From a virus, in the IMG/VR virus record IMGVR_UViG_3300030107_001466, positions 7,268 through 27,491 of that record: a stretch of 20,224 nt of DNA. One strand, given 5' to 3'. The position numbers were made by a program, and so were the translations under genes. The notes beneath the pieces are model-generated. The model had not been told where the DNA came from, searched no databases, and saw only the letters and a program-made list of their open reading frames with translations. Within the stretch, counting starts at the first letter, position 1. Each line of letters starts with the position of its first letter. Positions 2,096-20,224 of the stretch are shown here, piece after piece.

Positions 2096-5000
2096 ATGCC
2101 AGAAATTAAAAATCTTTTTCGCTCTGGAATCATGAATAAAGATGATGATGAGAGAATAATACCTAATGGACAGTACAGAGATGCAATGAATATTGAAGTT
2201 TCTACATCTGAAGATTCAGACGTAGGAACAGTTCAAAATATACTAGGTAATACTAGAGTAGACAATTTGCTTAATTTATCAGGTAGTGATATGAAAGCTG
2301 TTGGTGCTATTGCAGATGAAAAAAACGATACTTTATATTGGTTCGTAACTGGTGATTCGAGCGGTAAAAAAATTGACGCTATTATAGAGTACCATCATAA
2401 CGGTACTGTCACACCTATATTAGTGGATTTAAATGAAAGAGTTTTAAAGTTTGATAAAAATAATATAATTACAGGTATAAATATAATTGATAATTTATTG
2501 TTTTGGACAGACAATGTCAACGAACCTAGAAAAATAAATATAGATTCTTTTAAACTAAACAATCATACAGATTTAAATGATCATAGTACCATGTTTATTA
2601 ATGGTAATGGTATTGGTTTTGTAACAGAAGATCATATTACTGTAATACGAAAAAAACCAACCAAAGCCCCTAAGGTAACTTTTGAAGAAAGTGTTTTAGA
2701 GAGAAATCTTGAGTTTGGTTTCGCAGATGCAAGTACTGCTTATGGACCGATAGACATATCTAATAATACTTCACAATTACCACTACCAGGAACTATGTTG
2801 ACGCTTACACATATTGGGTATGTTGATAAATTCGATCCTTTTGAACTAGTTGTAGATGATGAAATAATATTAAGTAGACAAGATGCTCCTGGTAATTTAC
2901 CACAAAACTACGAATTAAAATTAAGATTAGATACTATTCTTACAGACGTGTGGGATACCACTTTCGGACAACCATTACCTGGACAAGTTGGCGCTGGAGT
3001 ATTTGAAGCTGAATTTGAAATATTAGAAATAAATAGTAGTATACCTACAAATACAGCTTTTCTTTATAACGCACAAAAGGTTTCAGAAAAAGATGTTATC
3101 TTTGAAAAAGATTTTATAAGATTCGCGACAAGATATAAATATGCAGATGGAGAATATTCTGCTTTCTCTCCTTTTACCCAACCAGTATTCTTAGCTGGAT
3201 CCTATGGGTTCCATCCAACAAAAGATCCTCATAATTTAGGTATGTCTAATAAAGTTATTAATATAAGATTACAAGAATTAATATCAAAAGATGTTCCAGA
3301 TGATGTAATTCAATTAGATATATTGTTTAAAAAAGAAGATTCGACGACTGTTTATTCTATTGATAGTATTAAACCCGATGATCATGCTAGTGGCTCGTAC
3401 AATCTTTGGAACACACCTATAGAATACGAAGTTTTAGATGGTAATTATCCAGCTGGAGATGAGACTAGTGATTATCATGAACAATTTACATCTACATATA
3501 CAGGGGAATATTTTATTTCTACTGAAAATATATACGCGGCATTACCAGAAAATCAAATGTTAAGACCTTGGGATAATATCCCTAGAAAAGCCTTATCACA
3601 AGAAATATCAGCGAATAGATTAATATATGGTAATTACATACAAAATTACAACTTAAAAGATTATCTTGGTAAAGAATGCCACACGGATATAACGGTCAAT
3701 TATGAAAAAAGACTTTTTCCTAATGCTAATATTATAAAGTTTGATACAGGGGTAAGATCTGTAAAAGCTGAAAGAACTTATTATTTAGGTATTGTTTATG
3801 GTGATAAATATGGTAGAGAAACACCTGTTTTTACCGGAAAAAATAGTTCTATAAGAGTACCGTTTGATCTAGATTCTAATGTTGGAAGTGGAAATTTTGA
3901 AGGAGCAGCTAGTACTGCATTAAGATTACAAGTCAAATTATCAGGACCACAACCACACTGGGCTCATTATTATAAATATTTCTTAAAACAAACAACAGGA
4001 GAATATTATAATTTAGTAGTAGATAGGGTTTACAAGTCCACTCAAGATCAAACGCTTTGGTTATCATTACCTTCTTCTGATAGAAATAAATTACAAGAAG
4101 GAGATTATTTTACAATAAAAAAGCAAGCTGATTTAGAAGTACAGGTTCCAGTTGCAAATAAAATAAAAGTAATAGATATAAAAAATGAAGCACCTGATTC
4201 TATTAAATTTGATTACACTACTTTAGGTACTGGCGGAGGATCTTCAGCTAACTTATCTAGTTTATTTCCAGATTCTAATGGAAAACCAGCAGAAGATGTT
4301 TTCCGTATAGCTGTAGATAAAGAAGCTTGGATAGTCACTGAGCTTGGTGCTAATATAGAAGAAAATCCTCCAGAGACTAAATATGCAATACAATTCTCTA
4401 TTTTAAGTGGAACTTCTAGAACTATGTCTGAGATGTATTTTGTATCTACCACCTTCATGGAAGACGCTGGAGTTAGCGGTAGATATGTATTCATACTAAG
4501 AAAAAAGATAACGGCAGCTGACTCATGGGTGGAAAGTTCAGCTGGTGTCTTAAATTCAACGCTTTCTATGGAGCTATTTTCTCTTGAAAATAAAAATTCT
4601 GTAGAGTTTGAAGGAAGATTTTTTGTTAAAATAGCATCAAATATAATAACACAATCTTACTTAGTGCCTGGAATTAATGATAACGTTGATTTTGCTTTAA
4701 TAGCGAGGGCTTACGCATTTTGGTTAGCAGACGAACCTGTGTCTGGTACTATTGGAGGTGGTAATATGGGATGTTTTAATACAAGCTCTGGTGCTTCTGG
4801 ACCTTGGGTTCAAAACACTACTAGTGCCGATGGTCGAAGTAAATTAGAATCAGAATGGGCTAATACTTTAAAGTTTAATACGACAGCTGAAAATAGTTCT
4901 GGTTGGTTCATAGACAACATGTATTTTGCGGCGGCTCAAGGAAATTACGAAGATGTTCCTGGAGGTGGATGGGACGCTTGGTACTCTGGAAGAATGCATA

Positions 5001-8000
5001 AAGGAAATCCAGTAGCAACCGTTTCTTTGACAGATCCCACTCCTATAGGAACGCAATATGTCAATAGTATAGAGGGTATAGTTAAAGTAGATAATACTGC
5101 TGGAGCATATAGTTATCAATCTTCCGCTCCATTTGGACCTCAAGGAGCTAGAAGTTGGAGTAAATATCCTTATATCTGTCACAATAGTTTAGATCAATAT
5201 CATACACTAGACAGTACTTATGGAACTTTACCCGCGGGACAAGTCCATTACACCGATACTTATAGAGCTGAAGGTCCTTACCCGGCGCAAAATGGTACTG
5301 GGCAAGGTGTGTTTATGCATTTATCATTTTCTTCTGTCGGTGTTGATTTACATGACGGTGATTTTACTCCGCTAACTGATGCTATTAACGCGGGTGAACT
5401 TGTAGAAGACGAATTTTATAAAAACTTACAATGGATTTTGTCTAGTGGAATACATTTTCAAGGAGATTTTGATAGTTATGTAGGGAAAAATTTTGCACAC
5501 TTTAATGCTAATGTAACAGCTGTAGGATTAGAAGCGCACGATAGACAATTCGATGTATCTTATATGGGTGGGCCAGGTGCCGCTGCTGTTGCTAATAATT
5601 TAGCTGTAGGTAATCAATTTAAATTTGAAGGTGATGATCAAACAGTGTATACGATACAAAGTGTAGATATAAAATATTTATACAATCATACAACATGGAA
5701 TCCTAGGATACGAACATCGTCAGGAATGACTACAAGTGATAATGTTTTTCCTGGTAATTTACCTGGTAATAGTGTATCAGAAGCTTTAGACGCGTTTTAT
5801 GTTAATCAAGTGCAATCCACGTATGATGTTTTAAAAGAAAGAATAGAAAACTTTGGAAAAGCAAATAATAGAAGAGTTTGTTATATAGTTCAATTAGACA
5901 AAGATCCTACTGATCAAAACTATAATCCTCTTGGTACTAATAAAGCAGATGACAATACGTTCAATGCTATAAACTTTATAGATACTTATATAGAACCTGG
6001 AAAAAATACAATACCAACTTCACCGGCTATATTGGAAACAGAAGCTAAAGAAGATCAAGATTTAAATATATATTACGAAGTAAGTGATGCTTTACCACGT
6101 ATATTAGATCTTACAGATGGTACTGGAAACTCTGGTTTAACTTCTAATTACAATGGTCCTGGAGGACCTATAACTGATCCAGAATCAAATAAAGGACATA
6201 TGTTAGCACCTGTTGGTAGTAAAGTTACTATTCATGGGCCAGGATTGATAGATTATGGTCAGCAAATAGCAGAATTTCCAGAAAAAAAGTTTTGGTTAAA
6301 AGTTGAAAATTGGGATGGTAATATACTTTCTATTCATGGGCCAGGATTAGAAACAAATGGAGTTACTTTAGAAGATAATACCACTTTTTACCAAGGTAAA
6401 ACACTAACATTTTGGAGAGAAGACAATAGTTATACAAGAGCAGCTATATTTGAATGTAGAGAACTTAGTACTAGTGGTATGTATGTTACTAAATTAGAAA
6501 TATATCCATTGGTACATAATAGAAATACTGGTTTGTCTTATTATAATTGTTTTAGTTTTGGAAACGGAGTTGAATCTAATAGAATTAGAGATGATTTTAA
6601 CGCCCCTATTATAAGACACGGAGTTAAAGCTTCTACTACTTTAGAAGAACCTTATGCAGAAGAAAGAAGAAAATATGGTCTAATATATTCTGGTTTATAT
6701 AATTCAACATCTGGGGTTAATAATTTAAATCAATTTATTCAAGCTGAAAAGATCACAAAAGATATAAACCCTGTATATGGTAGTATACAAAAGTTATACG
6801 CTAGAGAAAAAGATTTAGTCACTTTATGCGAAGATAAAATATTACAGATATTTGTAGATAGAGACGTTTTATATAACGCAGATGGTAATCAACAACTTCT
6901 ATCTACAAATCAAGTATTAGGACAAGCTCAACCATTTAGAGGTAATTATGGTATATCTACAAATCCAGAATCATTTGCCTCTGAATCATTTAGAGCTTAT
7001 TTTACAGACAAACAGAGAGGAGCTGTACTTAGATTATCTATAGATGGTTTAACACCTATATCAGATGCTGGTATGCATGATTACTTTAGAGATCATTTAA
7101 AAGATGGATTAACTTTATATGGATGTTATGACGCGTATAAAAAAGATTATAATTTATCTATTAATTATGGGATGACTAACAATAGGGTTTTAAATACTAT
7201 GTTTGATAAAGGTTTTACGAGTAACTCACAAACTAGTGGGACTGAATTTATTACTGATGGAGATTTTATAAATGCCCAACTCTTCCCAACTGACATCGTG
7301 TTAAACGGTACTTTTGCAGATCAACTTAATTGGATAAGTTCTAGCACCATCGGATCAATAACACATGATCCTAACGAAAACGCACCTCAAGATTTTAGTA
7401 GAACCAATATAAATGGCGTTATTAATGCGAGTGCTAATTACAATAATCAAAATCATAATGATGGAACTGGTGGTATAAAATGGTGGGGAATGATTTCGCC
7501 TGGTGATAGTATTTATCAAGATATACCAAGCTCGACAATTGGTGTTGGGGATTTTATTAATTTAAAATGGGATTTCTTTAAAATGTTTACTACTATACCT
7601 CCTGGTTGGAGTCCTGATAATAAAATAAAAGTTACTTTTACAAATGCTAATGGAGATGGTTTTCAAATAGCACCTAGTGAAATCAAATTTGATCAAACGC
7701 CTCCAAATGTTACAGAAATGCATTGTGATTTTAATAAACAAATTTCATCTAATTTTACATCGGCAGATCCTAGTATACCAACTGACAATTGGAGAGTACG
7801 TATGGAGTTAGCTAGTGCCACAGGCACACCTTGGTTAGGCAAGGAGTTTTACATAGACAATTTTGAAATTATAGAAGAACAAATTTCAATTCCTGATTGG
7901 ACTCTAGTTTTTGGACCTGGTACTTATAATGCCAGTGATGACACTGTATGGTCACTTCCAATTCAACAAAACGTTACAATTCCTAACACTGGTATATATA

Positions 8001-10036
8001 GAATTACTGTTGATATCAGCCAAGTACTTGCAACTGGATGGTTAAGAGTAGCTGTTGGTGGAAATTACGAAAATATTAAACAGATATTAACACCAGGTAC
8101 GTATAGTATTGATTTATATGTAGGAAACACCGGTGTTGTTCTATTTAGCATGGGTAATCTTGGTTTTTCCAGTGGCACTAATTATGGTGTTTTTCATATT
8201 GACTCAGTGTCATTACAAGAAGTGGTTAATTATGGTGGAGATGTTGATCACTGGGATTTAAATAGTGATAATGGTGATCCTGATAAGATATATACTTTAG
8301 AAACAGGTGGTGGAGAGAAGTTAGTAAAATTTGATCTTGCTCCAAAAGATACTTATTTACATCAAGAATTAATACCTACCAACCAAGTGTTAGACTTTGA
8401 TAGTGGAAGAATATGTAGAGTTAAATTTTCTTATAATAAGCCTTATTTAAGTGGATCTAATCTAGGTAAGTTATATTTTAGACTATATAATGCGGATGGA
8501 GAAGGTTTTGATAGAGAAATAACAGAAGGTTCAGGAATTGTAGAGTTCGAGGCTGAAATAGGTGGTAGTAATACTAGTATTGCAAATTTACAAAATAGAT
8601 TTGGTTTTTATGTTGGTTCGGATGATGTATTTACTGGTACAGTTGATAACGTGAGTTTAATTATAGACAGTAAAAACGATGGGAAATCGGTGTCTTATAA
8701 TGAAAAAGCTAAAGGTTGGACAAGTTTTAAGTCTTTTGTTCCTGAAATAGGTATTAGTAGTGTTAACCAATTTTATACTATGAACTTTGGTCAATTATGG
8801 AAACATCATACTAATGAAACTAGAAATACTTTTTACGGTGACTTTACTCAATCTTCTATAAAACCTGTATTAAATACAAATCCAGAATTAGTTAAACATT
8901 TCAATACGCTAAACTACGAAGGTACACAATCTAGAATTGATCAATTTTTAACACACGAAGTTACTGCTGATCAACCGTTTCCAATAGGTGATAACTTAAT
9001 AAATACCGGTGTTAATGTTTTTAATCAAATTAATGCACCTAACTCTAACGTAAGTTTTACAACACCTACCGCGGATAGTGTTTCTGTCACAGATTTACAC
9101 GGTGAACAAGGACAGGCAGATATTATAGAAATACAATCAGATATTCTTGATGTAAATAAAACATATAGATTATCTTTTGATTTTAGTGTAACCGGCGCGA
9201 GTGGGCAATCCCACGTTGCGTTTGGAGGAACTTCTATTTCACCAATATTATCAACGGCATTAAGTGGTGTATTTTCTGAAGATTTCACCCCTACAAACAC
9301 TATAGAATTTGTAAGTATAATTCATCCTAATCCAATTAATGGATTTGTAGAAGATGTTAATGTAGAGTTAACCAACATTCTTCTTCAAGAGTTAGACTTT
9401 ACAACAGATGAGAACGATGGGCAATATTATAATTTAATAGAGAGAAAAGGTTGGTATGTATCAGACATACACACAGATAAACAAGAGGGAACATTAAATG
9501 AATTTATAGAAAAAGAAGGTAAATGGTTTAACTATATAAAAGGAACAGCAAATCACTTTGATCCCGCAGCGTTTAATTTCCAAGGTATAGGAACAGTTGA
9601 ATCGGTTGATGGTGGTGTAGTTTTCGGTTGTACTAATCCTAACGCAACTAATTATGATCCTTTAGCCACCACGGATGATGGAACTTGTGGTTTCCCACCT
9701 GATAGTTTTGATATGCAAATTAGACCTTTAACTGGTGCATTTACTGGAGATGGAGCGGCTAGGGTTGTTTATATGGGTACTAATATAGAAGCCACTGGAT
9801 TTACTTACGCTTGGTCCAATGGAGGAACTGGTAGTGAAGTAACTGATCTAGGCGTAGGACCTATTGGTCTTACATTAACAGATGGACAAGGAAATCAACA
9901 TGTAGTACCTCACACGGCTGGACAAGATCCATCGGCACCTATGGTTATGTTCGACACGGTGACTGGCTGTACAAATCCAAATGCTACTAACTTTAATTAT
10001 GTGGCTAATATGGATGATGGTAGTTGTCAAATATAA
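2096..10036 (+). CDS. Giant tail nozzle/muzzle-like protein with inserted beta modules, 2646 aa
   Basis: This is likely the tail nozzle or muzzle protein (role of T7 gp12, P22 gp10 or the crAss-like muzzle), with receptor-contacting additions. The conserved-looking scaffold is an N-terminus with IIPNGQYRDAMNIEVSTSED (22-41) and LFWTDNVNEPRKINI (about 139-153). Around 1590-1680 there is a core with LYAREKDLVTLCEDKILQIF and NPESFASESFRAYFTDKQRG. It is followed by KGWTSFKSF (about 2205), NYEGTQSR (2273-2280) and KGWYVSDI (2451-2458), then EKEGKWFNYIKG. Four beta-sandwich-like modules interrupt this scaffold (about 1721-1927, 1930-2043, 2047-2190 and 2298-2433); each ends in a D/T-(N/S)-x-x-L/I strand such as IDSVSLQE. 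The C-terminus holds a SprB-like segment flanked by two GCTNPNATN...DDG(T/S)C motifs. No signal peptide or membrane helix is seen. The nozzle assignment rests on recalled motifs and gene order. The module calls are inferences. Confidence 0.72.
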   Translation: MPEIKNLFRSGIMNKDDDERIIPNGQYRDAMNIEVSTSEDSDVGTVQNILGNTRVDNLLNLSGSDMKAVGAIADEKNDTLYWFVTGDSSGKKIDAIIEYHHNGTVTPILVDLNERVLKFDKNNIITGINIIDNLLFWTDNVNEPRKINIDSFKLNNHTDLNDHSTMFINGNGIGFVTEDHITVIRKKPTKAPKVTFEESVLERNLEFGFADASTAYGPIDISNNTSQLPLPGTMLTLTHIGYVDKFDPFELVVDDEIILSRQDAPGNLPQNYELKLRLDTILTDVWDTTFGQPLPGQVGAGVFEAEFEILEINSSIPTNTAFLYNAQKVSEKDVIFEKDFIRFATRYKYADGEYSAFSPFTQPVFLAGSYGFHPTKDPHNLGMSNKVINIRLQELISKDVPDDVIQLDILFKKEDSTTVYSIDSIKPDDHASGSYNLWNTPIEYEVLDGNYPAGDETSDYHEQFTSTYTGEYFISTENIYAALPENQMLRPWDNIPRKALSQEISANRLIYGNYIQNYNLKDYLGKECHTDITVNYEKRLFPNANIIKFDTGVRSVKAERTYYLGIVYGDKYGRETPVFTGKNSSIRVPFDLDSNVGSGNFEGAASTALRLQVKLSGPQPHWAHYYKYFLKQTTGEYYNLVVDRVYKSTQDQTLWLSLPSSDRNKLQEGDYFTIKKQADLEVQVPVANKIKVIDIKNEAPDSIKFDYTTLGTGGGSSANLSSLFPDSNGKPAEDVFRIAVDKEAWIVTELGANIEENPPETKYAIQFSILSGTSRTMSEMYFVSTTFMEDAGVSGRYVFILRKKITAADSWVESSAGVLNSTLSMELFSLENKNSVEFEGRFFVKIASNIITQSYLVPGINDNVDFALIARAYAFWLADEPVSGTIGGGNMGCFNTSSGASGPWVQNTTSADGRSKLESEWANTLKFNTTAENSSGWFIDNMYFAAAQGNYEDVPGGGWDAWYSGRMHKGNPVATVSLTDPTPIGTQYVNSIEGIVKVDNTAGAYSYQSSAPFGPQGARSWSKYPYICHNSLDQYHTLDSTYGTLPAGQVHYTDTYRAEGPYPAQNGTGQGVFMHLSFSSVGVDLHDGDFTPLTDAINAGELVEDEFYKNLQWILSSGIHFQGDFDSYVGKNFAHFNANVTAVGLEAHDRQFDVSYMGGPGAAAVANNLAVGNQFKFEGDDQTVYTIQSVDIKYLYNHTTWNPRIRTSSGMTTSDNVFPGNLPGNSVSEALDAFYVNQVQSTYDVLKERIENFGKANNRRVCYIVQLDKDPTDQNYNPLGTNKADDNTFNAINFIDTYIEPGKNTIPTSPAILETEAKEDQDLNIYYEVSDALPRILDLTDGTGNSGLTSNYNGPGGPITDPESNKGHMLAPVGSKVTIHGPGLIDYGQQIAEFPEKKFWLKVENWDGNILSIHGPGLETNGVTLEDNTTFYQGKTLTFWREDNSYTRAAIFECRELSTSGMYVTKLEIYPLVHNRNTGLSYYNCFSFGNGVESNRIRDDFNAPIIRHGVKASTTLEEPYAEERRKYGLIYSGLYNSTSGVNNLNQFIQAEKITKDINPVYGSIQKLYAREKDLVTLCEDKILQIFVDRDVLYNADGNQQLLSTNQVLGQAQPFRGNYGISTNPESFASESFRAYFTDKQRGAVLRLSIDGLTPISDAGMHDYFRDHLKDGLTLYGCYDAYKKDYNLSINYGMTNNRVLNTMFDKGFTSNSQTSGTEFITDGDFINAQLFPTDIVLNGTFADQLNWISSSTIGSITHDPNENAPQDFSRTNINGVINASANYNNQNHNDGTGGIKWWGMISPGDSIYQDIPSSTIGVGDFINLKWDFFKMFTTIPPGWSPDNKIKVTFTNANGDGFQIAPSEIKFDQTPPNVTEMHCDFNKQISSNFTSADPSIPTDNWRVRMELASATGTPWLGKEFYIDNFEIIEEQISIPDWTLVFGPGTYNASDDTVWSLPIQQNVTIPNTGIYRITVDISQVLATGWLRVAVGGNYENIKQILTPGTYSIDLYVGNTGVVLFSMGNLGFSSGTNYGVFHIDSVSLQEVVNYGGDVDHWDLNSDNGDPDKIYTLETGGGEKLVKFDLAPKDTYLHQELIPTNQVLDFDSGRICRVKFSYNKPYLSGSNLGKLYFRLYNADGEGFDREITEGSGIVEFEAEIGGSNTSIANLQNRFGFYVGSDDVFTGTVDNVSLIIDSKNDGKSVSYNEKAKGWTSFKSFVPEIGISSVNQFYTMNFGQLWKHHTNETRNTFYGDFTQSSIKPVLNTNPELVKHFNTLNYEGTQSRIDQFLTHEVTADQPFPIGDNLINTGVNVFNQINAPNSNVSFTTPTADSVSVTDLHGEQGQADIIEIQSDILDVNKTYRLSFDFSVTGASGQSHVAFGGTSISPILSTALSGVFSEDFTPTNTIEFVSIIHPNPINGFVEDVNVELTNILLQELDFTTDENDGQYYNLIERKGWYVSDIHTDKQEGTLNEFIEKEGKWFNYIKGTANHFDPAAFNFQGIGTVESVDGGVVFGCTNPNATNYDPLATTDDGTCGFPPDSFDMQIRPLTGAFTGDGAARVVYMGTNIEATGFTYAWSNGGTGSEVTDLGVGPIGLTLTDGQGNQHVVPHTAGQDPSAPMVMFDTVTGCTNPNATNFNYVANMDDGSCQI
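6228..6246 (+). repeat. 19-base in-frame direct repeat, copy 1
   Basis: CTATTCATGGGCCAGGATT occurs here and again exactly 102 bases (34 codons) downstream, inside the nozzle gene. It encodes IHGPGL, at about residues 1379-1384. This could be a duplicated beta-turn unit or a trace of a short duplication. Confidence 0.6.
6330..6348 (+). repeat. 19-base in-frame direct repeat, copy 2
   Basis: This is an exact second copy of CTATTCATGGGCCAGGATT, in the same reading frame as the first. The flanking codons differ (TIHGPGLID in the first copy, SIHGPGLET here), so the identity is confined to the repeat itself. Confidence 0.6.
9626..9688 (+). repeat. Codons for cysteine motif copy 1 (GCTNPNATN...DDGTC)
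   Basis: Residues 2511-2531 of the nozzle-like protein read G-C-T-N-P-N-A-T-N-Y-D-P-x-A-x-x-D-D-G-T-C. This motif type is common in extracellular proteins of marine Bacteroidetes and their phages. The two cysteines probably pair, or the acidic loop may bind a metal; both are inferences. Confidence 0.75.
9800..9894 (+). other. Codons for SprB-like beta repeat
   Basis: From residue 2569 the protein reads FTYAWSNGGTGSEVTDL, then a short Gly turn and LTLTDGQGN. This matches the pattern (Y/F)-x-Y-x-W-S-(N/T)-G ... T-x-T-D-x-x-G typical of SprB-type repeats in Bacteroidetes gliding adhesins. There is a single unit, placed between the two cysteine motifs. Confidence 0.55.
9965..10027 (+). repeat. 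Codons for cysteine motif copy 2 (GCTNPNATN...DDGSC)
   Basis: Residues 2624-2644 repeat the first cysteine motif, with the same GCTNPNATN start and DDG-S-C end, and stop two residues before the C-terminus. The DNA of the two copies differs at many third positions, so the duplication is not recent or has been kept by selection on the protein. Confidence 0.75.
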
Positions 10037-10051
10037 TATAGATAATATAAT

Positions 10052-11320
10052 ATGGCTTTAATAACAAAAATAGAAATAGATACGTCGAGATTAAGAACTA
10101 GCGCGACTAATAGACTTTTAAAGGTAATTGGAGATGAAGATGCTAGATTTTGGGTTTATATAACTAGATCTTCTAATTCTCAAGCTTATAACTTTGTCAC
10201 GAAATCTTTTTCTGCTACTATTAATTCTCAAAGTAGATTAAGAAATCAATCTCCTGGAATACTTAATTTATCTTTTCCAGCAGCGGCTAGTGGAGATACT
10301 TACACGGTACAAATTCATGCTGATGCTCATTCTGGAACTAGATTTAGTTTTGGTCAAAATAAATTATATTATTCATTCACATTAACACAAATTGGTAATT
10401 CTACCTTAACCTTTAAAAGTGTAGGAACAGGTTATGGGATAACAGATACTTCTCATGGGTCTTCGACTGGATCTACAGTTGATACTTTTGCTGGTATAGA
10501 AAGATCAACATTTGTTTTTAATAAAGCACAAATAACCTCTACTGCCGAGGATGAAGATTTTGGCTTTTTTATATCAACATTAAATTTAAAACCACGATTT
10601 GACGGTGATTTAAATTATGGAACTTGGGACGAAGGGGCTTTGTGTGTTCAGTACAGTAAAGTGGCTAATGGAGCTGGTACAAGTGCTACTTCTTTAGTTT
10701 TAGACGATGTTGATAATTTGCTTGTAGGCATGGAAGTAGCTGTTATAAATAGTGTACATCAAAGCGCTAGAAGAAAGATAACCGCTATTAACACTAGTAC
10801 AAAAACAGTTACATTAAATGGTAGTGAAACATGGAGTAACGATCATGTTATATTATTTAGAGCTTTTGGAACGAGATTAATAAAAGCAGCGAGTGGTGCA
10901 AATATAACACTAAGTGACGCTTTTGTGGAACTAGGACAAACAACAACTGAAATAAGAACAGATATTACCGCGGATATTGCAGCTGGATCATCAATAAACG
11001 TAAGAGGAACAGCGGGTATATCCGCAGAAGCTACTATTAGAATGAGAGGATTAGCAAGAAATACTAGTTCTTCATCCTGTGTGGTTGTGTCTGTACCTAC
11101 ACCAAGTGCAGCTACAAATGACGGTGTTATAAGATTATCAAATGGAGAACTTGCTGCCAGTGAAGAAAGACCAATTAAAGCAGGGACAAAAATATACGTG
11201 GATGGTAGTAGTAATATAGTTTATTTATATGGTACAATAAGCATTAGTAAATATCCTTCTGCTAACGCAGATTTATTGATAGATATGACTAAAATATTAA
11301 CCCAAGGATTACCAGGTTAG
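10052..11320 (+). CDS. Ser/Thr-rich beta-structured virion protein, 422 aa
   Basis: I do not recognise a specific family. The sequence is dominated by short alternating beta strands and Ser/Thr/Gly turns, as in phage tail or head-decoration proteins. It has almost no charged helices until the end. Around residues 218-268 there is a unit with a V-G-M core (225-227) followed by a strand-rich segment (KITAINTSTKTVTLNGSE), resembling the two V-G-M units of the 449-residue ring protein. It has no signal peptide, membrane helix or catalytic motif. It lies directly after the nozzle gene (15-base A/T gap) and before the small conserved virion gene, so a tail-appendage or surface role is likely. This is the only gene here ending in TAG; an in-frame TAA follows three codons later. 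Confidence 0.65.
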   Translation: MALITKIEIDTSRLRTSATNRLLKVIGDEDARFWVYITRSSNSQAYNFVTKSFSATINSQSRLRNQSPGILNLSFPAAASGDTYTVQIHADAHSGTRFSFGQNKLYYSFTLTQIGNSTLTFKSVGTGYGITDTSHGSSTGSTVDTFAGIERSTFVFNKAQITSTAEDEDFGFFISTLNLKPRFDGDLNYGTWDEGALCVQYSKVANGAGTSATSLVLDDVDNLLVGMEVAVINSVHQSARRKITAINTSTKTVTLNGSETWSNDHVILFRAFGTRLIKAASGANITLSDAFVELGQTTTEIRTDITADIAAGSSINVRGTAGISAEATIRMRGLARNTSSSSCVVVSVPTPSAATNDGVIRLSNGELAASEERPIKAGTKIYVDGSSNIVYLYGTISISKYPSANADLLIDMTKILTQGLPG

Positions 11321-11343
11321 GATCGTAATTAAACTACAATAAA
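11321..11343 (+). repeat. Gap element copy 2 (GATCGTAA / ACTACAATAAA)
   Basis: The element starts on the base after the TAG stop of the 422-residue gene. GATCGTAA, then TTAA, then ACTACAATAAA match the blocks at 12-29. The rest of the gap (11344-11365) is A/T-rich, with no Shine-Dalgarno sequence before the ATG at 11366. No convincing terminator is seen. Confidence 0.4.
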
Positions 11344-11769: not shown

Positions 11770-12411
11770 ATGGCAAATAAAAAATCATCACCAGTAAAAT
11801 TCGTAAATGCTATGTTCGGCGGTGCTCAAAGAAGAAGAGAGCAATTTGCCGCAAATCAAGATCTTGGTCAAAAAATGGAAGACTGGGAAAATAGAAAAAT
11901 GAAAAATCCTTACGCTGGTGTAAAAAATCCTTATGAAAATTTAGAGAACGTTTATGAGGACGCTCAAGTAAATTTAAAACAAGCTGAGTTTGAAAAAGAA
12001 CAATCACAACAAGCTATGGCTAATATAATGCAAGGTATGCAAGGTGCTGCAGGTGGAAGTGGTGTAGCTGGTTTAGCGCAAGTTCTAGCTAACCAAGGAG
12101 TAAAACAGGCTCAACAATCTGCGTTATCTATTGGTGCTCAAGAACAAACTAATCAACAAAGAGCTATTGCTGAATCAGGTAGATTAGCAGAGCAAAAAGC
12201 TATGGGTGAACAAAAAAGAGCTTTAATGGAGAGAGAAGGTGAGAGAATGGTGGAAGCGCATGATATTAAAAAAGAAGAGCAAATGTTGGATTACGCAATG
12301 CAAAGAAAAAACGCATCGGATCAAGCTATTGCAGATGCTCAAGCGACAGTAGATAAATTTATTTCTGGAGCTGTTAGCACTGGAATATCAGCTGCAATTC
12401 CAACGCCTTAA
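11770..12411 (+). CDS. T7-gp14-like internal virion protein, 213 aa
   Basis: This is probably an internal virion protein ejected with the DNA, of the T7 gp14 type. In that system, gp14 helps form a channel through the cell envelope. The N-terminus is basic (QRRREQ near 20-25) and is followed by two NPY motifs (46-48 and 53-55) and a NVYEDAQVNLKQAEFEKEQS helix (60-79). A Gly/Ala-rich, weakly hydrophobic segment (about 85-110, GMQGAAGGSGVAGLAQVLA) could insert into a membrane. The rest is Gln/Ala/Glu-rich and predicted coiled coil, ending in another small-residue stretch (ISGAVSTGISAAI). I recognise this layout from marine phage genomes. The gene stands 38 bases after the previous one, with no Shine-Dalgarno sequence. 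It ends in tandem TAA stops. It is followed by an unknown and then the giant protein, echoing the T7 gp14-gp15-gp16 order. Confidence 0.65.
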   Translation: MANKKSSPVKFVNAMFGGAQRRREQFAANQDLGQKMEDWENRKMKNPYAGVKNPYENLENVYEDAQVNLKQAEFEKEQSQQAMANIMQGMQGAAGGSGVAGLAQVLANQGVKQAQQSALSIGAQEQTNQQRAIAESGRLAEQKAMGEQKRALMEREGERMVEAHDIKKEEQMLDYAMQRKNASDQAIADAQATVDKFISGAVSTGISAAIPTP

Positions 12412-12424
12412 TAAATAATAAAAT

Positions 12425-13345
12425 ATGTCAGAAGATAAAAGAATAAAAAAGTATTTTGAAAATATGCCTTATGGTGACGATGCTAAGTCGTCAGAAATAC
12501 ATGGTAAGGCAAATCAACAAATTATAAATAAAACTATAACCTCTTTAGCTAAACAATATGACGCTTTGTTTTCTATCGGGGATAAATCAGGAGCACAAAA
12601 CATATCTGATCTTATAAAAAACATTGCTAGACAACTAGATAATTTAAAAGCTATAAAAGAAGAGTTTGCAGTAAGTTACGGTGGAGGAGTTGGAGGTAAA
12701 AATACTTTTTCAAACTATACTGATTTAAATTGGGAAAGAGCGTTTTTTGGAGAAGTACCTGGAAGTTATATAACTATAGATGAAAATTATCAAATATTAT
12801 GTACAGCTCACGATCCTAATGGTGTAAAAATAACTAAAACTATAAGTGATATAACTGAAAATTGGGTAATCAAAGGAACAGAAGAGGCTGAGTATATGAA
12901 TGCTTATAAAGATTTAGTTAAACAAGGTCAAACAGCAGCTAAACACCCTGATTTTGATATTGATTGGACAGTAGATAATTTACTTATAAATAACGACGCT
13001 TGGAAAGTGTTTGTATCTGATAAAATCGGAGGTATATACTTTTTACAAGAGTGGATGCAACAAAATAAAGAAGCATTAATGAAAGGTGAAATAGAGGATA
13101 GTATGTTACATCCTGATTCTTTTGATCCGAATTACGATACTAGACTACATAAATTTTATGCTGATAGATTGAGAGCTGCGTTTGATTCAAGTTATCAAAC
13201 TATAAGAGAGGGTAACAAATCTAGTTCAACTATACCTGGTAGAACAACTATGGAAGAAACAAAACAATCTGAGCAAACAAGCGGATCATCTCCAGCGGGA
13301 ACATCTATAAAATTTGAAGATTATAAAATACCAAATTTACAATAA
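12425..13345 (+). CDS. Unknown virion-associated protein, 306 aa
   Basis: No family is recognised. The N-terminal third (about 1-85) is helical and charged. It is followed by a Gly loop (YGGGVGGKN at about 85-93) and a compact mixed segment with aromatic residues (YTDLNWERAFFGEVPGSY). A central beta part (TIDENYQILCTAHDPNGVKI) leads into helices with WTVDNLLINNDAWKVFVSDKIGG and FLQEWMQQNKEALM. The last 45 residues are Ser/Thr-rich and look disordered. There is no membrane helix, signal peptide or catalytic motif. It sits 13 bases after the gp14-like gene and 6 bases before the giant gene, so it is likely translated and assembled with them. By position, a partner of the ejected proteins (the T7 gp15 slot) is a reasonable guess, but nothing in the sequence proves it. 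Confidence 0.6.
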   Translation: MSEDKRIKKYFENMPYGDDAKSSEIHGKANQQIINKTITSLAKQYDALFSIGDKSGAQNISDLIKNIARQLDNLKAIKEEFAVSYGGGVGGKNTFSNYTDLNWERAFFGEVPGSYITIDENYQILCTAHDPNGVKITKTISDITENWVIKGTEEAEYMNAYKDLVKQGQTAAKHPDFDIDWTVDNLLINNDAWKVFVSDKIGGIYFLQEWMQQNKEALMKGEIEDSMLHPDSFDPNYDTRLHKFYADRLRAAFDSSYQTIREGNKSSSTIPGRTTMEETKQSEQTSGSSPAGTSIKFEDYKIPNLQ

Positions 13346-13351
13346 TTTAAT

Positions 13352-16300
13352 ATGAGTAAATCAACTAAATCACCTTTAAAACATAATGAAGGAGGACACA
13401 TGCTTCTCAACAAAGAGACTCATATAGCTCAACACGGTGGCGACGCTGTTGCGGCTGGTTATGAAGAGGCTATCGAAAGTCCACCAGTTGAAAATCGTGA
13501 TCCATCTACTGGACAGGTATCTTATTCTTTTGACTTAAGTAAAATGTCAAATGAATCTTTGAAGGAAACAGAGGAAAAAGAAAAAAATAAATCAAAGTCT
13601 TTACTGACTCCTCAAGCAAGTCCATTAAGTGAAGAAACTAAAGTTAAGTTAGGTATAGAAGATGGTAGTTTTGAAAAACCCTTTAAAGGAGTACCACCTA
13701 CAACTAAAGCCGCTACGGATGGTTCTTATTATTACAATCCAGGTGTTGATCAGTTATATTATTTTAACAAAGGTAAATATCAAAAAGTTTCTAAAGAAAG
13801 TGGTGTTACTAAAAAAGAAGAAAAAGAAGATAAATCTAAATTTATATATAAAGGTGAGGTTATTGACAATAAAGAAATCAATAAACTTGAACAAATAATT
13901 AATAAACCTAAAACAAACTTTAAAATTAATAATGAAGAAGTTAGTGAAGAAGATTTATTAAGTTTAGAAAACGGTAAAGTACCGTCAAAATATTTCCTTG
14001 TAGGTGTTCATTCTCCTGATTATCAAAAGCAAGTTATTGCTAGTTACAACAAATGGAAAAAAGATAATTACGGCGGTAAATCTCCTGAAAAAATAGAAGC
14101 GTTTAAAAAATTTCGAGACGAGCGTGCAGAAGCATTCGTAGCAGGCAAAGAAGATCGTCCTGAATATAAATATAACGATTTTGTATCTAAAGAAGAAAAT
14201 GAAATACTAGAGATTCAACATAAGTTAAACAACTGGGGTGGTTTAGATAAGAAAGAAAGAGATATATTAAATTCTCAATTAGGTGTAGTTAATAATAAAA
14301 TAAAGAAAAAAGAACTTGAAGAAAGAAAATTAAAAGGAAAAGAAAATTTTGAAGCAGAGGAGAATGTCATACCTTTTATTTTAGAAAACAAAGATGAAGT
14401 AGGTTTTGATAAGTTTGGAAAATATGGTTTTATGGTTCAAAATCCACTAGAAGTTGGAATAGTGAACATACTTGGTTACGATCTTGTTAAAGCGGAGTTA
14501 GATAATGAAAAAATAATAACTTCTCTTGACGGAGAATCAATGGTTTTGAATGGAGACGGTAAAGGATATGTAAACGGTGTAGAGGTAGATCCTAAACAAT
14601 GGATGAGTGATAACGCTTATCTTTTTAAAGATAAAACAGAAGCGAACATTGAAAGAATACATAAGGGTAGTTTAACTCCTCTCCAAATAAGTAAGTTAGA
14701 ACAAACTGATAAAAACTACGTTCTTAATACTATTCAAGATGCACATTTATCGGAGAAAGAGATGGAAGCAGCGTATCTATCTACAGTAACTCCAGTCGAG
14801 AATATCCATACTGGAGAAATGAAAACCCAACCATTTATAACGGATAGTCCTTATGAGTTACCTATAGCTATAGGAGAAGATATAAATAAAACAAGTCATA
14901 TAGATATAGCTCTTAATCAAGCTAGTGGAGTAAGAGATCATGGTCTTTTAGATTTCGGAGAAGACGAAGATGAAGAAGTTACTAAACGTAATCTAACACC
15001 ATATCGAAATAATCTAACTAACGCTATAAGAGATGTTGTAACACAGAAATTAAACGCTTTAGATAAAGAAAGAGGAGGAACTGGTAAACTAAATGGCATA
15101 CAATTAGCTGAAAAATACCCTGATGAGTTTGAGATGTTACAATCAGAAGTTACCGATGAATGGCATGAACTTACTGGATTTTTAACCGATCAAGCCGAGT
15201 TGGCTGGAAGGTCAGACGAAGACGATGCATTTTCTACTAGTGATATTTATGATTTAGATGGAAATATAGTAAATCAAGATTTATTTGATTCACAACTTAG
15301 TAAATTACAAAATAGTGATACTTATAAATATTTATCTAAAAGAATTACAGATCAAAGAAGAATAGATCTAGTAAATATAAATATGACAAAAGCGATTGAA
15401 AATCCTTTAATGTTTGATCAATCTGTCTTTAATAAAGATGAAAAGCATGAAATGCTAATAGAAGAAGCTGCAGAAAAGGAGATAGAATTAGATGAAGAAT
15501 ATGCTGATTTATTAGTTATCCATAATACGTTAGAAGAAAAAGCTGATATATTAAGAAAGGATTTAACCGCAGAGGTTCATTGGTTAGAAGAAAATAGTGA
15601 AGATGCTGTTATTGAAAAAATAAAAGAAATACAATCTAGAGACTTTAAAACACAAGAAGAGGTTGATGATGCCAACGCAGAGATCAAAAGGATTTCAGAT
15701 GATTTTATGGATCATGTTAAAGAATATCAAAGACTGCGTAACGAAGTTTTAGGTTTAAACAAACAAGCTGACGAATTAAGTATAGATTTTGAAGATCATT
15801 TTAAAGATGCTGAAAAATTTGCCGACTACTATAACATGCTTGATAAAAATTACTCTATAGGAGCTCAAATGGGAGCTAGTTTTATGACTGGCTTAACAGA
15901 TTTAGGTATTGGATTAATTAGCGTTGGGGATATGTTAACGGATGTTGTTACACAAAGTTACGGAACAGAAGAAAGTTTCCTTCAAGAAGTAGCTAATGGT
16001 ATGGACGAGTGGAAAAACGCAACGTGGGTAGACCCATATCAAGTTAGACCGACTTACGAACAAGCTAAGGTAAGTGCTGGAGATGCTTTTGAATGGGCCT
16101 GTGTTTCTATAGCTGGTCAAGGACCACAACTCGTGGGTCATGGTATTGCTACTGGATTACAGTTAACTGGAGCTGGCTTCCCAGCGGGTACAGCTTTGCA
16201 AATTGCACTTGGGGCTAGTGCTGCTGGTAATCAATATAGAGAATTTGAAGAAAACGCTTTATTATACAACAAAACAAACGGATTATACGGTGAAGATATA

Positions 16301-19300
16301 GATTTTTTAACAGCTTTCACGGCTAGTACTGGTGTTGGTGCTGTAGAATACGCTTCGGAGAGAGTTACTTTTGGTTTAGCTACTAAGGTTGGTAAAGGAC
16401 TTCTTTCAGACGTTGGACAAGCGACTGGATGGAAATATCTTAGACAAAACGTTTTCAACTACAAATCAATGAGAAATTATTGGGGCGACGTTAGTCAAGA
16501 AGCAATTAGCGAAGGACTTGCTTCCCTTGGGCAGAATGGAGCGCAAATATTAGCAGGAAAAAAAGGAGTAGGATTATATGATAATGTTGAAGAAAGCATG
16601 GTTATAGGTGGTTTAATAGGTAAAACTATGAAAACCCCATTAATATTTAAGCACGCTATAGCTCCTTTTAGATCTCCTAGTAACGACGCTATATTATCAA
16701 GTAATCTTAGAAAGGTAAATAAACTCGGAATGGATTTATTAAATCCAGACTTAATAGATCAACATGCGAGTATTAAAGAAGAGATAGCTAGATTAACTCA
16801 GCAAAATGCTAGATTAATAGAAGAAGATATTAAACGTGTTGACTTATTAAATAACGATGAAAAAAGAGATTTAATAAATATAGAATCTGATAATAGAAAG
16901 TTAACTCAAGCTGCTAAAGAAATTCAAGAAGATAAAACTTTAACTAAACAGCAAAAACAACAGCAATTACAAGGAATAATTGAAAAATTAAATAAAAACC
17001 AAGTTCGTAAACAAGAGATAATAGATAAATATCCAGAAGTTACAGAAGCATATAAACAAACTATGGCTTCTGTTAAAAAACAAGGAAAATTAGTTGAAAA
17101 ATATGGTGGTCCTAAAGTAGAAATAGAAGAGGGTAGTACTGAAAGATTTGGTGAGGTTTTAGAAGAAATGGGTGTAGATCCTGTTTATCAAACTAGATAT
17201 GGTGGTATGATGCCAATATTAGATGCTGATGGTAATGTAGAAAGTTATAAATTATTTATTAATAAAGAAACCTCATTGCGAGATGGTATGTTTCATACTG
17301 GGGCTCATGAGTTTTTACACGGTGTAATGTATCAAACGTTAAAACAAGATATGGTTTCTCAAGATGCGGTAGGTACGGCTTTATTAAAAGCTTTGAATGA
17401 TCAAATGTTAGATGCTAATGGAAATCTAAAAAAAGGAGCTGGTTTAAAAGAAGGTAGTGATTTTAACGATAGAATAAATGCGTATAGTCCACAAGAAGGA
17501 CAAGGAGAAGAAATAGTAATGATAACTTCTGAAGCTTTATTAAATAAAGAAATAGAGTTAAAACAATCAACAAAACAAAAGTTAAAAGGTATATTTAGAA
17601 GATTTGCTCAAAACCACTTAGGAAGAGATATAAGATTTGATACAGATCAAGATCTTTTAAATTTCGTAATAGATTACAATGTATCTATAAAAAAGAATAT
17701 ACCTAGTAAAGCTATAATGAGAATGGCTGCTGAGGGGGCTAAAGGTAAACTAATAGATCAATATCAAAAAGATTTAGTAGATGCTAAGAACGAAACTGTT
17801 TTTTCTAAAAACGTTATACAAGAAATAACAAATAACCCAGATATAAAACAAGAGTTTGATCAATTTGTACAAAATCCAGATGGAAGTAAAAAATATAAAA
17901 CTAAAGAAAGTTTTCAACAATCTGTAGAATTTTTCCCTGCTTATGACAAGATAGTTAACTCTAAGGTTTTAGATGGTTTAGTAATGGCTAACGTTTCAGA
18001 TGTTGTACAGCCGTCTCAAATGAGTGAGTTTGTTAGAAACGTAAAAGAGAAAATAGGTGATAGATTTTTAAAGAATTTTAATCCAGCTGTAAACGATAGT
18101 TTATTTGGATGGTTAACAGGTGTAGCTGGTGGTAGAGGAGAATCTATTATATATAGAGCTAAAGGTGATATAATGAATGAGTATAGTAAACAAATTCAAG
18201 CTCAATCATTAGAAGCTCAAGCTGAGAAGAGTGCACAAATAGAAGATAAAGCGGATAAATCTTTAGAAATATTTGAAGAATTAAATCTTGAAACAGGTAG
18301 AGTAAAAGGACCTATAGGTATAAAATTATCTGAGAGATTAGGGCCAAAAGCTAAAGAAATAAATAATACAGTTAAAGAGATTGCGTCAGAAATGGATTTA
18401 GAAAATCTTAACTTTAAAACACTAAAAGATTTAACGCCTAATTTAACTCAAGAAATGTTTGGTATAAAACCTAAAGTAGGTAATTTAACAAAATCAGATA
18501 TTAAAAACGCACAAATGTTTATTAATAAAAACGCTAGTACATTGATAGCTATGCTACCAGAAGGTTCTACCGCTAGTGGTACTTCAACAGGTGTTCAAAA
18601 GGTTTTATTAGACGCTTTTTATACTAAATCCGACAGAGCTAAAATGGCAGAAACTGGAACAAAAGCTGGTTTAGCTGTTCAAATTAAAAATGACAATATA
18701 ACTCCTTCTGAATTTTTAGAGGTTTTTGGTATAACAAAAAGAGGAGAAGCTAATTTATACAAAAAAGATAGTAATACTAGTTCTAGAATAAAAGCTTTAG
18801 TTGCTCAAACTGGTAGAATGATGACTAATCAAGGTGTCAGAGAGTATTTAAACAACGAAGGTAAAATAAAGTTATCTGCTAAAATAGCTGATGGTAAAGC
18901 TAGAATGATGTTTAGTAATCCGCCTTCTGAAAAAATTAATAATCAAGATATAAGTAGTTTATTGTTAGCGACACAAAAAAGTTGGAAACAAATAGTTAAA
19001 GACAGAAAACTAACTCCTATAGATATGAATACAGAGCAAGGTAGAGCTTTGCTTAAAGAGTTTGTTGTTAATAAACTGTCTAAACGTTTACCTGAAATTT
19101 TCTTTAAAACATCTGGTACTTTTGATGGTAGTAGTAAGTCAATGTTCAATGAGCAAGGAGAACAAGTAAGAGTTCCAAAAGCTAATTTATTAAATAAAAC
19201 AGTTGATGAAACAATAGCTATGTTTGCTGAAAACCATACATTTGGTCCTAGTGACGTTGATATAAATAATTTACTAATAAAACCAACTCAAAGCAAAACT

Positions 19301-20224
19301 AACTTAGAAAACGCTGAGTTCAAGGCTTCTAAATTAAGAGGGTTTAAAAAAGTATTAAACGTTTTAAATGAAATGATACAAGAAGACAAGGCTAATATAC
19401 CTTATGTAGCTGCTTTGTTGTCTTCAACTAGTTCTAATCAAGGCCATTTTATGAGAAAAGGTTCTTTATTAGAATTTATCAACTCGTTAAACGAGGCAAA
19501 CGTAGAAGAACATACACAAGCTGCTAGTGATTTTGGTAAGTTTATTCTTAATAGAATGATAGAGGGTAATTACAATAACTATATAGATTTAGCTTTAAAC
19601 GCTTATACACAGGGTTCTTTACCAAAAAGATTTGATAATTTACTTCAAGATCCAAATGGTGAATTTAATTATAAAAATAATGCTGGTGAATACACTTACG
19701 CTATATTAGTAGAAGGAAAACCAGTTTGGATTAGATATTTTAATCCTAATGTAAATAATAATCAAGATGGTATAAATCCTAATGTTTTAATATTAGCTAA
19801 CGGTAATACAGTCGCTCAAGAATTTGGTGTTGGGGTAGATATTAGCTTATATAATGATCAAAATGTAATAAATAAACAACAAGATTTATTATTTAAAATA
19901 TTTAATGGTGACATAACACAATCGCAAGCTTCTGCAGAAATTAAAAAATATACTACTAAAATAAAACCTATAGCACGTACAGAGAATGTTAAAAACGCTA
20001 TAGTGTTTAGTAAAGCGGTTAATAACGCTAGAGCGATAAATAAAAATACTGAATCTAGAGGTATGTCCGCTTTTGATTTTGATGAAACGTTGATAGATAA
20101 AGGTAAAAATGTTATTACAGCTAAAAAAGGAGATGATGTTGTTGTTATTACCTCTAGTCAATGGCCGATACAAGGACCTCAATTAGCTAAAGTTGGATAT
20201 GAATTTGATTTTAGTGATTTTATA
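13352..20224 (+). CDS. Giant polyvalent / ejection protein with metallopeptidase and HAD motifs, partial (2291+ aa)
   Basis: I translated this frame codon by codon from the ATG at 13352 to the last base and found no stop, so the gene runs past the right edge. Order of parts: charged, low-complexity N-terminus (1-200); helical, acidic region; coiled coil (about 700-830); Gly/Ala-rich hydrophobic section (about 835-1093, with VSIAGQGPQLVGHGIATG and EAISEGLASLGQN); second coiled coil (about 1136-1231); HEFLH metallopeptidase site (1319-1323) with a likely third ligand in GEEIVM (E1386 or E1387); helical C-terminal body with LPEGSTASGTSTGVQ (1735-1749) and EHTQAASDFGKFIL (2053-2066); FDFDET of a HAD-type motif I (D2242, D2244, T2246), cut by the window end. 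This matches phage polyvalent proteins, which are packed in the virion and injected. Enzyme activities and ejection are inferred. The start could instead be the in-frame ATG at 13400. Confidence 0.85.
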   Translation, partial: MSKSTKSPLKHNEGGHMLLNKETHIAQHGGDAVAAGYEEAIESPPVENRDPSTGQVSYSFDLSKMSNESLKETEEKEKNKSKSLLTPQASPLSEETKVKLGIEDGSFEKPFKGVPPTTKAATDGSYYYNPGVDQLYYFNKGKYQKVSKESGVTKKEEKEDKSKFIYKGEVIDNKEINKLEQIINKPKTNFKINNEEVSEEDLLSLENGKVPSKYFLVGVHSPDYQKQVIASYNKWKKDNYGGKSPEKIEAFKKFRDERAEAFVAGKEDRPEYKYNDFVSKEENEILEIQHKLNNWGGLDKKERDILNSQLGVVNNKIKKKELEERKLKGKENFEAEENVIPFILENKDEVGFDKFGKYGFMVQNPLEVGIVNILGYDLVKAELDNEKIITSLDGESMVLNGDGKGYVNGVEVDPKQWMSDNAYLFKDKTEANIERIHKGSLTPLQISKLEQTDKNYVLNTIQDAHLSEKEMEAAYLSTVTPVENIHTGEMKTQPFITDSPYELPIAIGEDINKTSHIDIALNQASGVRDHGLLDFGEDEDEEVTKRNLTPYRNNLTNAIRDVVTQKLNALDKERGGTGKLNGIQLAEKYPDEFEMLQSEVTDEWHELTGFLTDQAELAGRSDEDDAFSTSDIYDLDGNIVNQDLFDSQLSKLQNSDTYKYLSKRITDQRRIDLVNINMTKAIENPLMFDQSVFNKDEKHEMLIEEAAEKEIELDEEYADLLVIHNTLEEKADILRKDLTAEVHWLEENSEDAVIEKIKEIQSRDFKTQEEVDDANAEIKRISDDFMDHVKEYQRLRNEVLGLNKQADELSIDFEDHFKDAEKFADYYNMLDKNYSIGAQMGASFMTGLTDLGIGLISVGDMLTDVVTQSYGTEESFLQEVANGMDEWKNATWVDPYQVRPTYEQAKVSAGDAFEWACVSIAGQGPQLVGHGIATGLQLTGAGFPAGTALQIALGASAAGNQYREFEENALLYNKTNGLYGEDIDFLTAFTASTGVGAVEYASERVTFGLATKVGKGLLSDVGQATGWKYLRQNVFNYKSMRNYWGDVSQEAISEGLASLGQNGAQILAGKKGVGLYDNVEESMVIGGLIGKTMKTPLIFKHAIAPFRSPSNDAILSSNLRKVNKLGMDLLNPDLIDQHASIKEEIARLTQQNARLIEEDIKRVDLLNNDEKRDLINIESDNRKLTQAAKEIQEDKTLTKQQKQQQLQGIIEKLNKNQVRKQEIIDKYPEVTEAYKQTMASVKKQGKLVEKYGGPKVEIEEGSTERFGEVLEEMGVDPVYQTRYGGMMPILDADGNVESYKLFINKETSLRDGMFHTGAHEFLHGVMYQTLKQDMVSQDAVGTALLKALNDQMLDANGNLKKGAGLKEGSDFNDRINAYSPQEGQGEEIVMITSEALLNKEIELKQSTKQKLKGIFRRFAQNHLGRDIRFDTDQDLLNFVIDYNVSIKKNIPSKAIMRMAAEGAKGKLIDQYQKDLVDAKNETVFSKNVIQEITNNPDIKQEFDQFVQNPDGSKKYKTKESFQQSVEFFPAYDKIVNSKVLDGLVMANVSDVVQPSQMSEFVRNVKEKIGDRFLKNFNPAVNDSLFGWLTGVAGGRGESIIYRAKGDIMNEYSKQIQAQSLEAQAEKSAQIEDKADKSLEIFEELNLETGRVKGPIGIKLSERLGPKAKEINNTVKEIASEMDLENLNFKTLKDLTPNLTQEMFGIKPKVGNLTKSDIKNAQMFINKNASTLIAMLPEGSTASGTSTGVQKVLLDAFYTKSDRAKMAETGTKAGLAVQIKNDNITPSEFLEVFGITKRGEANLYKKDSNTSSRIKALVAQTGRMMTNQGVREYLNNEGKIKLSAKIADGKARMMFSNPPSEKINNQDISSLLLATQKSWKQIVKDRKLTPIDMNTEQGRALLKEFVVNKLSKRLPEIFFKTSGTFDGSSKSMFNEQGEQVRVPKANLLNKTVDETIAMFAENHTFGPSDVDINNLLIKPTQSKTNLENAEFKASKLRGFKKVLNVLNEMIQEDKANIPYVAALLSSTSSNQGHFMRKGSLLEFINSLNEANVEEHTQAASDFGKFILNRMIEGNYNNYIDLALNAYTQGSLPKRFDNLLQDPNGEFNYKNNAGEYTYAILVEGKPVWIRYFNPNVNNNQDGINPNVLILANGNTVAQEFGVGVDISLYNDQNVINKQQDLLFKIFNGDITQSQASAEIKKYTTKIKPIARTENVKNAIVFSKAVNNARAINKNTESRGMSAFDFDETLIDKGKNVITAKKGDDVVVITSSQWPIQGPQLAKVGYEFDFSDFI
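13391..13395 (+). promoter_or_regulatory. GGAGG before an in-frame internal ATG (13400)
   Basis: This is the only strong Shine-Dalgarno-like match placed before an in-frame ATG that I found in the window. It lies four bases before codon 17 of the giant gene. All other starts here lack such a site, so 13352 fits the local pattern better. The bases also encode Glu-Gly-Gly, so chance is possible. Confidence 0.3.
17306..17320 (+). other. Codons for HEFLH zinc-peptidase site
   Basis: Residues 1319-1323 of the giant protein read H-E-F-L-H, preceded by MFHTGA and followed by GVMYQTL. The surrounding helix and the E-E pair about 64 residues later (GEEIVM, 1385-1390) fit a gluzincin-like zinc site with two His and one Glu as ligands and E1320 as the catalytic base. 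The role of each residue is inferred from the family pattern. Confidence 0.7.
20066..20224 (+). other. Start of HAD-like domain, cut by window end
   Basis: Residues 2242-2246 read D-F-D-E-T after a hydrophobic strand (SAF), the DxDx(T/V) motif I of HAD-superfamily phosphatases. A strand (DVVVITSSQWP) and FDFSDF follow before the window ends. Motifs II to IV, needed to confirm the fold, are not in view. Confidence 0.6.

Follow-up and report, generated by a model that had tools for sequence, protein, structure and literature searches.

Does the gene that runs without a stop to the last base of this stretch encode a genuine giant protein and, if so, to which class of protein does it belong? The window, by which we mean the whole stretch of DNA that was analysed (20,224 bases), occupies positions 7268-27491 of a 30,660-base IMG/VR record (G000:C1), and all of the features described here lie on its plus strand. 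The giant protein is large, little known and divergent, but its class is one already known. The reading we favour, and consider probable, is that of a large polyvalent protein packed in the virion and ejected by a marine phage of podovirus-like type that bears a muzzle and is related to the flavophages.

A single gene interrupted by a scaffold gap

An ATG at 13352 opens a reading frame of 2,291 codons that continues stop-free to 20224. At the GC content of the window (approximately 31%), a random codon is a stop approximately 8% of the time and, by our own arithmetic, an open run of this length has a chance of approximately e^-186. Chance origin is thus excluded and the open-ended gene is real, as the first-pass annotation of this DNA had held. 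Together with the muzzle gene (2,646 amino acids, 2096-10036), it takes up 14,814 of the 20,224 bases, in agreement with the earlier figure of about 73% of the window in two genes.

The frame lacks a stop because the window finishes exactly at a scaffold gap, 10 N that follow directly after it (L003:8493-8502). Joints of this kind bound the window both at 1 and at 20224, so its terminal genes will appear open. The earlier description of an open end holds within the window, but the gene is approximately 900 residues longer and its stop is hidden by the gap. When the gene is extended to the right, as had been advised, one frame resumes past the gap within the same domain (NVRGGVEGPLMQKF...LTARP...VDDALPNV) and continues for 942 codons up to a stop at L003:11332 (G000:C1:30331). 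For each of the 76 intact relatives with an alignment on both sides of the joint, the residue that follows the last one of the window is the first one past the gap, so nothing has been lost and the gene encodes approximately 3,180 amino acids, a length given after correction for a 44-residue repeat. Residues 1-2291 lie at 13352-20224 and the remainder at G000:C1:27502-30331.

The repeat surrounds a second joint of 10 N beyond the window (L003:9933-9942; G000:C1:28932-28941), where a 44-residue segment stands on either side in two strain versions with 21 of 44 residues identical. At this joint the record therefore appears chimeric, with two strains joined. Such joints are what could be cited for the whole giant frame being an assembly artefact or chimera, which we regard as extremely improbable. 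The 6,873 bases of the gene in the window contain neither N nor stop, which refutes this explanation for the in-window part; the same architecture is kept in 95 intact relatives, and 76 of 76 agree with the joint that closes the window. In these 95 relatives the giant is one chain, and profiles do not split the frame into unrelated ordinary structural proteins; such a split is what the first-pass annotation had named as contrary to its view.

Relatives and genomic neighbourhood

A tblastn search of the whole giant against 50,697 phage records gave no match, and a first pattern scan of IMG/VR for it found nothing. Two conserved pieces of its C-terminal part were located at 220 and 219 places in IMG/VR. 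The 95 distinct giants obtained from this database are 2,526-4,265 amino acids long, with a median of 3,118, and locus limits truncate a few at the 5' end.

The muzzle gene upstream of the giant (2096-10036) encodes a homologue of crAss_MUZ (PF25731, E 1.6e-9; PF25729, E 4.8e-6), and a muzzle is also encoded in 45 of 48 records that carry the giant. A 213-amino-acid protein (11770-12411), presumed to be a small ejection protein, has counterparts by hhalign in Gundel_1 gp072 (91%), elemoC gp22 (89%) and, more weakly, phi38:1 gp99 (54%). Of 109 loci, 90 have its homologue upstream of the giant; the small downstream gene has a homologue in 80 of 119. Between the 213-amino-acid gene and the giant, locus comparison reveals a strongly variable slot; here it encodes a 306-amino-acid protein (12425-13345) whose homologue adjoins the giant in few loci, and elsewhere it mostly holds reading frames of approximately 270-640 amino acids.

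Contigs of this phage group also occur in metagenome-assembled genomes called Woesearchaeota and Aliivibrio (PBPJ01000012.1, JAAGZR010000343.1, JAAGZR010000351.1), probably through binning errors. The taxa of these three contigs conflict and are useless for host assignment.

Anatomy of the chain and its homology to flavophage proteins

The N-terminal part of the giant (residues 1 to approximately 780; 13352-15691) is hypervariable, with low occupancy and conservation in an alignment of 84 relatives. It is followed by a hydrophobic central domain with a helical stalk (residues approximately 906-1227; 16067-17032), which was delimited by hhalign to flavophage giants and is presumed to be a membrane or channel part. 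A hydrophobic section had been noticed before, and one is found at residues approximately 830-1110, where the Kyte-Doolittle mean over 19 residues attains 1.3 at a single position. The coiled coils reported earlier correspond to long helices in the prediction.

The central-domain profile matches phi38:1 gp101 (98.5%, E 2e-15), Gundel_1 gp074 (98.0%) and elemoC gp20 (98.6%), and Panino at 77%. The controls, crAss001 proteins and further gp47 relatives, score 1% or less. Because the hhalign E-values come from single pairwise comparisons, the contrast with the controls was relied on and not the size of the E-value. The matched proteins occupy the same slot behind the muzzle. In addition, the zincin profile of the giant matches elemoC gp20 (91.5%) and its C-terminal profile matches Gundel_1 gp074 (92%). 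These profile comparisons support homology of the predicted central domain to giant structural proteins of cultured flavophages.

The cultured proteins differ in how much of the giant they share. The Cellulophaga phage proteins phi38:1 gp101 and phi40:1 gp101 (Pervagoviridae; 1,691 amino acids), which are 99.9% identical, have the post-muzzle slot and the homologous central domain but are half the length of the giant and lack a C-terminal profile match; in phi38:1 gp101 neither an HExxH nor a HAD motif was found. Gundel_1 gp074 (Tenacibaculum phage, 2,482 amino acids) and elemoC gp20 (Flavobacterium phage, 3,694 amino acids), both annotated as structural, share giant size, slot, central domain and HExxH with the present protein, but the HAD motif was not found in them and they show no tblastn similarity at E 1e-3.

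Among these flavophages, phi40:1 alone has an annotation based on experimental MS/MS proteomics of virions, which covers gp101 and the adjacent gp097-gp100. By this homology the giant would itself be packed in the virion, which lends support to the virion location proposed by the first-pass annotation. Since the detected relative is without both enzyme motifs, the MS/MS data support the carrier, through the shared central domain, and not the cargo enzymes. It is highly unlikely that the giant is instead absent from virions and produced in the host cell early in infection; no peptides from the present virus are known, as that explanation would have it, but the gene lies among the structural genes, at the position where MS/MS-detected proteins are encoded. 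The giant ties a large uncultured phage group, whose giant protein had no tblastn match in the 50,697 phage records, to a flavophage virion protein detected by MS/MS.

The annotation of phi38:1 (KC821614) cites phi18:1_gp91-gp101. Phage phi18:1 is too small for this (39 kb, 65 features), and phi40:1 was probably meant.

Another candidate relative was the cargo protein gp47 of crAss001 (Crassvirales; 2,341 amino acids; PMC10172136), a giant found in virions, encoded in the module after the muzzle and carrying HExxH. Homology to gp47 is not supported: position and motif agree but the profiles do not, the central domain scoring 0.5% against a seven-member alignment and the zincin domain 6%, and significant profile similarity is absent in the central, zincin and C-terminal parts of the giant. 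A module like the N4 virion RNA polymerase was also considered, and no polymerase family occurs among the Pfam, PHROG and NCBIfam matches.

Zincin-type peptidase domain

Predicted fold and conservation delimit a zincin-like metallopeptidase domain at residues approximately 1230-1397 (17039-17542). The peptidase site reported earlier is its HEFLH zinc site, H1319-H1323 (17306-17320), in which the first histidine is kept in 96% of relatives and the glutamate and second histidine in 100%. The presumed third zinc ligand, E1387 (17510-17512), is present in 96% and is invariant in alignments A2 and A3. These ligands are near-invariant although the mean column identity around them is 12-14%. The AlphaFold model (mean pLDDT 81, pTM 0.46) places a helix, three strands, the HExxH helix and a helix with the glutamate in succession. 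The same succession is described for the peptidases of polyvalent proteins, in which a zincin-like peptidase is the commonest domain, present in approximately 36% of the class (Iyer et al., 2017; PMC5512222). Pfam peptidase models and curated family models gave no match to the zincin part at cutoff. Conservation and model support the prediction that the giant carries a zincin-type metallopeptidase.

Four relatives are without a plain HExxH. One of them (L055) has HEVLGH, an HExxxH form that is also named by Iyer et al. (2017; PMC5512222). In the other three (L148, L158, L160), the first zincin histidine is missing and ExxH is kept; these are possibly inactive peptidases.

The zincin domain could be a maturation protease that cuts the giant while the particle assembles, and possibly cuts further virion proteins, only some of the fragments then being packed or ejected. 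No enzymatic feature of the giant is better conserved than the peptidase, and DdrB of phage P1 is cut before packing, with its C-terminal peptidase domain as the proposed agent (PMC5512222). Set against this, the N4 virion RNA polymerase, which has a like domain, is packed uncut (PMC5512222), and the time of cleavage cannot be told from sequence. We consider this maturation role unlikely; it would still allow the rest of the giant to be ejected.

Predicted HAD phosphatase domain and proposed exchange of cargo enzymes

The phosphatase-like motif of the first-pass annotation proved to be a HAD-type DFDET at residues 2242-2246. It belongs to a predicted HAD phosphatase domain that starts at residue 2236 and crosses the joint, the window holding the N-terminal third up to the gap (20057-20224); DxDxT is followed by LTARP, K and DD. 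The aspartates D2242 and D2244 are kept in 88% and 93% of relatives. A strict HAD motif is found in 82 of the 95 giants and, with the variant in L117 (DFDDTLA after W), in at least 83. Family matches to this domain are weak: phrog_415 (polynucleotide kinase) matches in 15 of 44 relatives (best E 1.3e-6), DUF2608 in 18 relatives (best E 1.8e-4) and HAD-IA below its cutoff.

Near the HAD site, six giants carry a P-loop kinase resembling AAA_33, zeta-toxin or polynucleotide kinase. In three of these (L070, L071, L141) kinase and HAD motif occur in one giant; in the other three (L090, L136, L100) the kinase is there and the HAD motif is missing. The HAD domain appears closest to the phosphatase moiety of polynucleotide kinases from phages and may thus be a 3'-phosphatase, a reading that draws on the weakly scoring families and on the fact that a few relatives also carry a kinase. 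Matches to phrog_415 and phrog_505, together with the kinase that accompanies or replaces the HAD domain in six giants, recall the T4-type polynucleotide kinase/phosphatase; the domain order and the carrier protein differ, and the scores are weak.

Other inserts follow the HAD site, ahead of the C-terminal body. Three giants (L073, L090, L136) have an insert of approximately 500 residues, which holds an NPWCI...YWDRMD motif, and two (L146, L153) have one of approximately 205 amino acids.

The C-terminal body

The C-terminal body of approximately 650 residues is all-helical and has many invariant columns. Its model in the relative L076 (pLDDT 79, pTM 0.70) has 58 matches at E <= 0.001 in a library of viral models. 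The top matches are uncharacterized virus proteins of 42-50% identity; the next are C-terminal pieces of phage giants of 10-16% identity, with E-values down to approximately 1e-12, several of them named ART-PolyVal or large polyvalent. The C-terminal body is thus similar in predicted structure to C-terminal pieces of polyvalent proteins, a class encoded by phages and by conjugative elements. In Foldseek comparisons with the PDB, neither of the whole models (zincin and C-terminal) had a significant match. Close to its end (L003 approximately 11130-11330), the giant has two Cys/His modules behind a Lys/Glu-rich linker; they are zinc-knuckle-like in appearance, and such modules occur in 45 of the 95 giants.

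A polyvalent protein with a proposed role at entry

The giant resembles the large polyvalent proteins in having disparate enzyme domains in one giant chain with a zincin hub (Iyer et al., 2017; PMC5512222). Such a protein combines at least two domains of unrelated activity, and the zincin and HAD domains are two such domains by motif, conservation and predicted fold. Members of the class also enter the host with the DNA; for the giant, the observation that bears on this is the virion location of its phi40:1 homologue. It differs from the published examples in that the words phosphatase and PLxRFG are absent from that paper, so a HAD phosphatase is seemingly not among the named domains. LPD38 of Pfam matches in none of 49 records, although the controls are also without a match and LPD38 is not required of all polyvalent members.

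An ejected polyvalent protein is suggested by several lines of evidence: the 95 one-chain relatives, the muzzle in 45 of 48 records and the conserved neighbours; the flavophage central-domain homology with MS/MS detection of phi40:1 gp101 and gp097-gp100; the near-invariant zincin ligands, the polyvalent-peptidase fold and the matches of the C-terminal body to phage giants; and the HAD motifs, with phrog_415, DUF2608 and HAD-IA matches and, in some relatives, a kinase or another insert at that site. Counted against it are the lack of a PDB fold match, an LPD38 match or an at-cutoff Pfam peptidase match, the phi38:1 gp101 protein without enzyme motifs and the weak HAD matches.

Phage T7 has the gene order gp14-gp15-gp16. 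The succession of muzzle, small, medium and giant protein in the present module resembles this order, and the hydrophobic central domain also occurs in relatives without enzymes such as phi38:1 gp101. The giant might therefore be mainly structural, a component of an ejection channel or core comparable to T7 gp16, and its enzyme-like domains would carry little weight. This is quite unlikely given that the zincin ligands are kept in 96-100% of relatives amid diverging surroundings, that a HAD motif is present in at least 83 of 95 giants with replacement by a kinase rather than mere loss in some, and that the PDB search with the zincin and C-terminal models gave no fold match to T7 gp16.

On the favoured reading of an ejected polyvalent protein, the giant chain would be packed with the DNA and, when the phage infects, would exit by way of the tail and muzzle. 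Packing, translocation and contact with the membrane may be the tasks of the hydrophobic central domain together with the helical C-terminal body. If active as predicted, the zincin domain would cleave the giant chain, in the head or after entry, and free its parts, and the HAD domain, also a predicted enzyme, would be a cargo handed over at entry. In a tentative and on the whole improbable extension, the C-terminal body would be a carriage module common to many uncultured marine muzzle phages, before which end-healing enzymes (3'-phosphatase HAD, 5'-kinase or both) are swapped. The zincin would free these enzymes after entry, and the phage would mend the ends of tRNA or DNA cleaved by defence nucleases of the host, ahead of phage gene expression. 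The analysis yields an alignment with named catalytic residues and the site of cargo-enzyme exchange; with the flavophage link, these make a polyvalent-protein role at entry testable in phages of Cellulophaga, Tenacibaculum and Flavobacterium.

Further observations

A further conserved region of the chain (residues 1700-1855, N...LPxG...G...FY; 18449-18916) was recognised by conservation, and database searches with it gave no match. A direct Pfam match of the window protein to Lipase_chap (E 0.014) was rejected, being below cutoff and sitting in predicted long helices. A sigma-70 region-2-like domain at residues approximately 1520-1780 was also rejected: the initial matches were weak (SigA, E 0.012; Sigma70_r2, E 0.001-0.005), a focused alignment gives E 0.45 and the match falls inside the giant frame in one of 49 records. 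The C-terminus of the muzzle gene (approximately 9630-10033) contains two GCTNPNATN...DDG(T/S)C repeats. In eight records (G003, G007, G012, G017, G027, G041, G042, G048), separate frames of approximately 250-264 amino acids outside the giant match Sigma70_r2 above cutoff, and the phages concerned apparently encode a sigma factor of their own.
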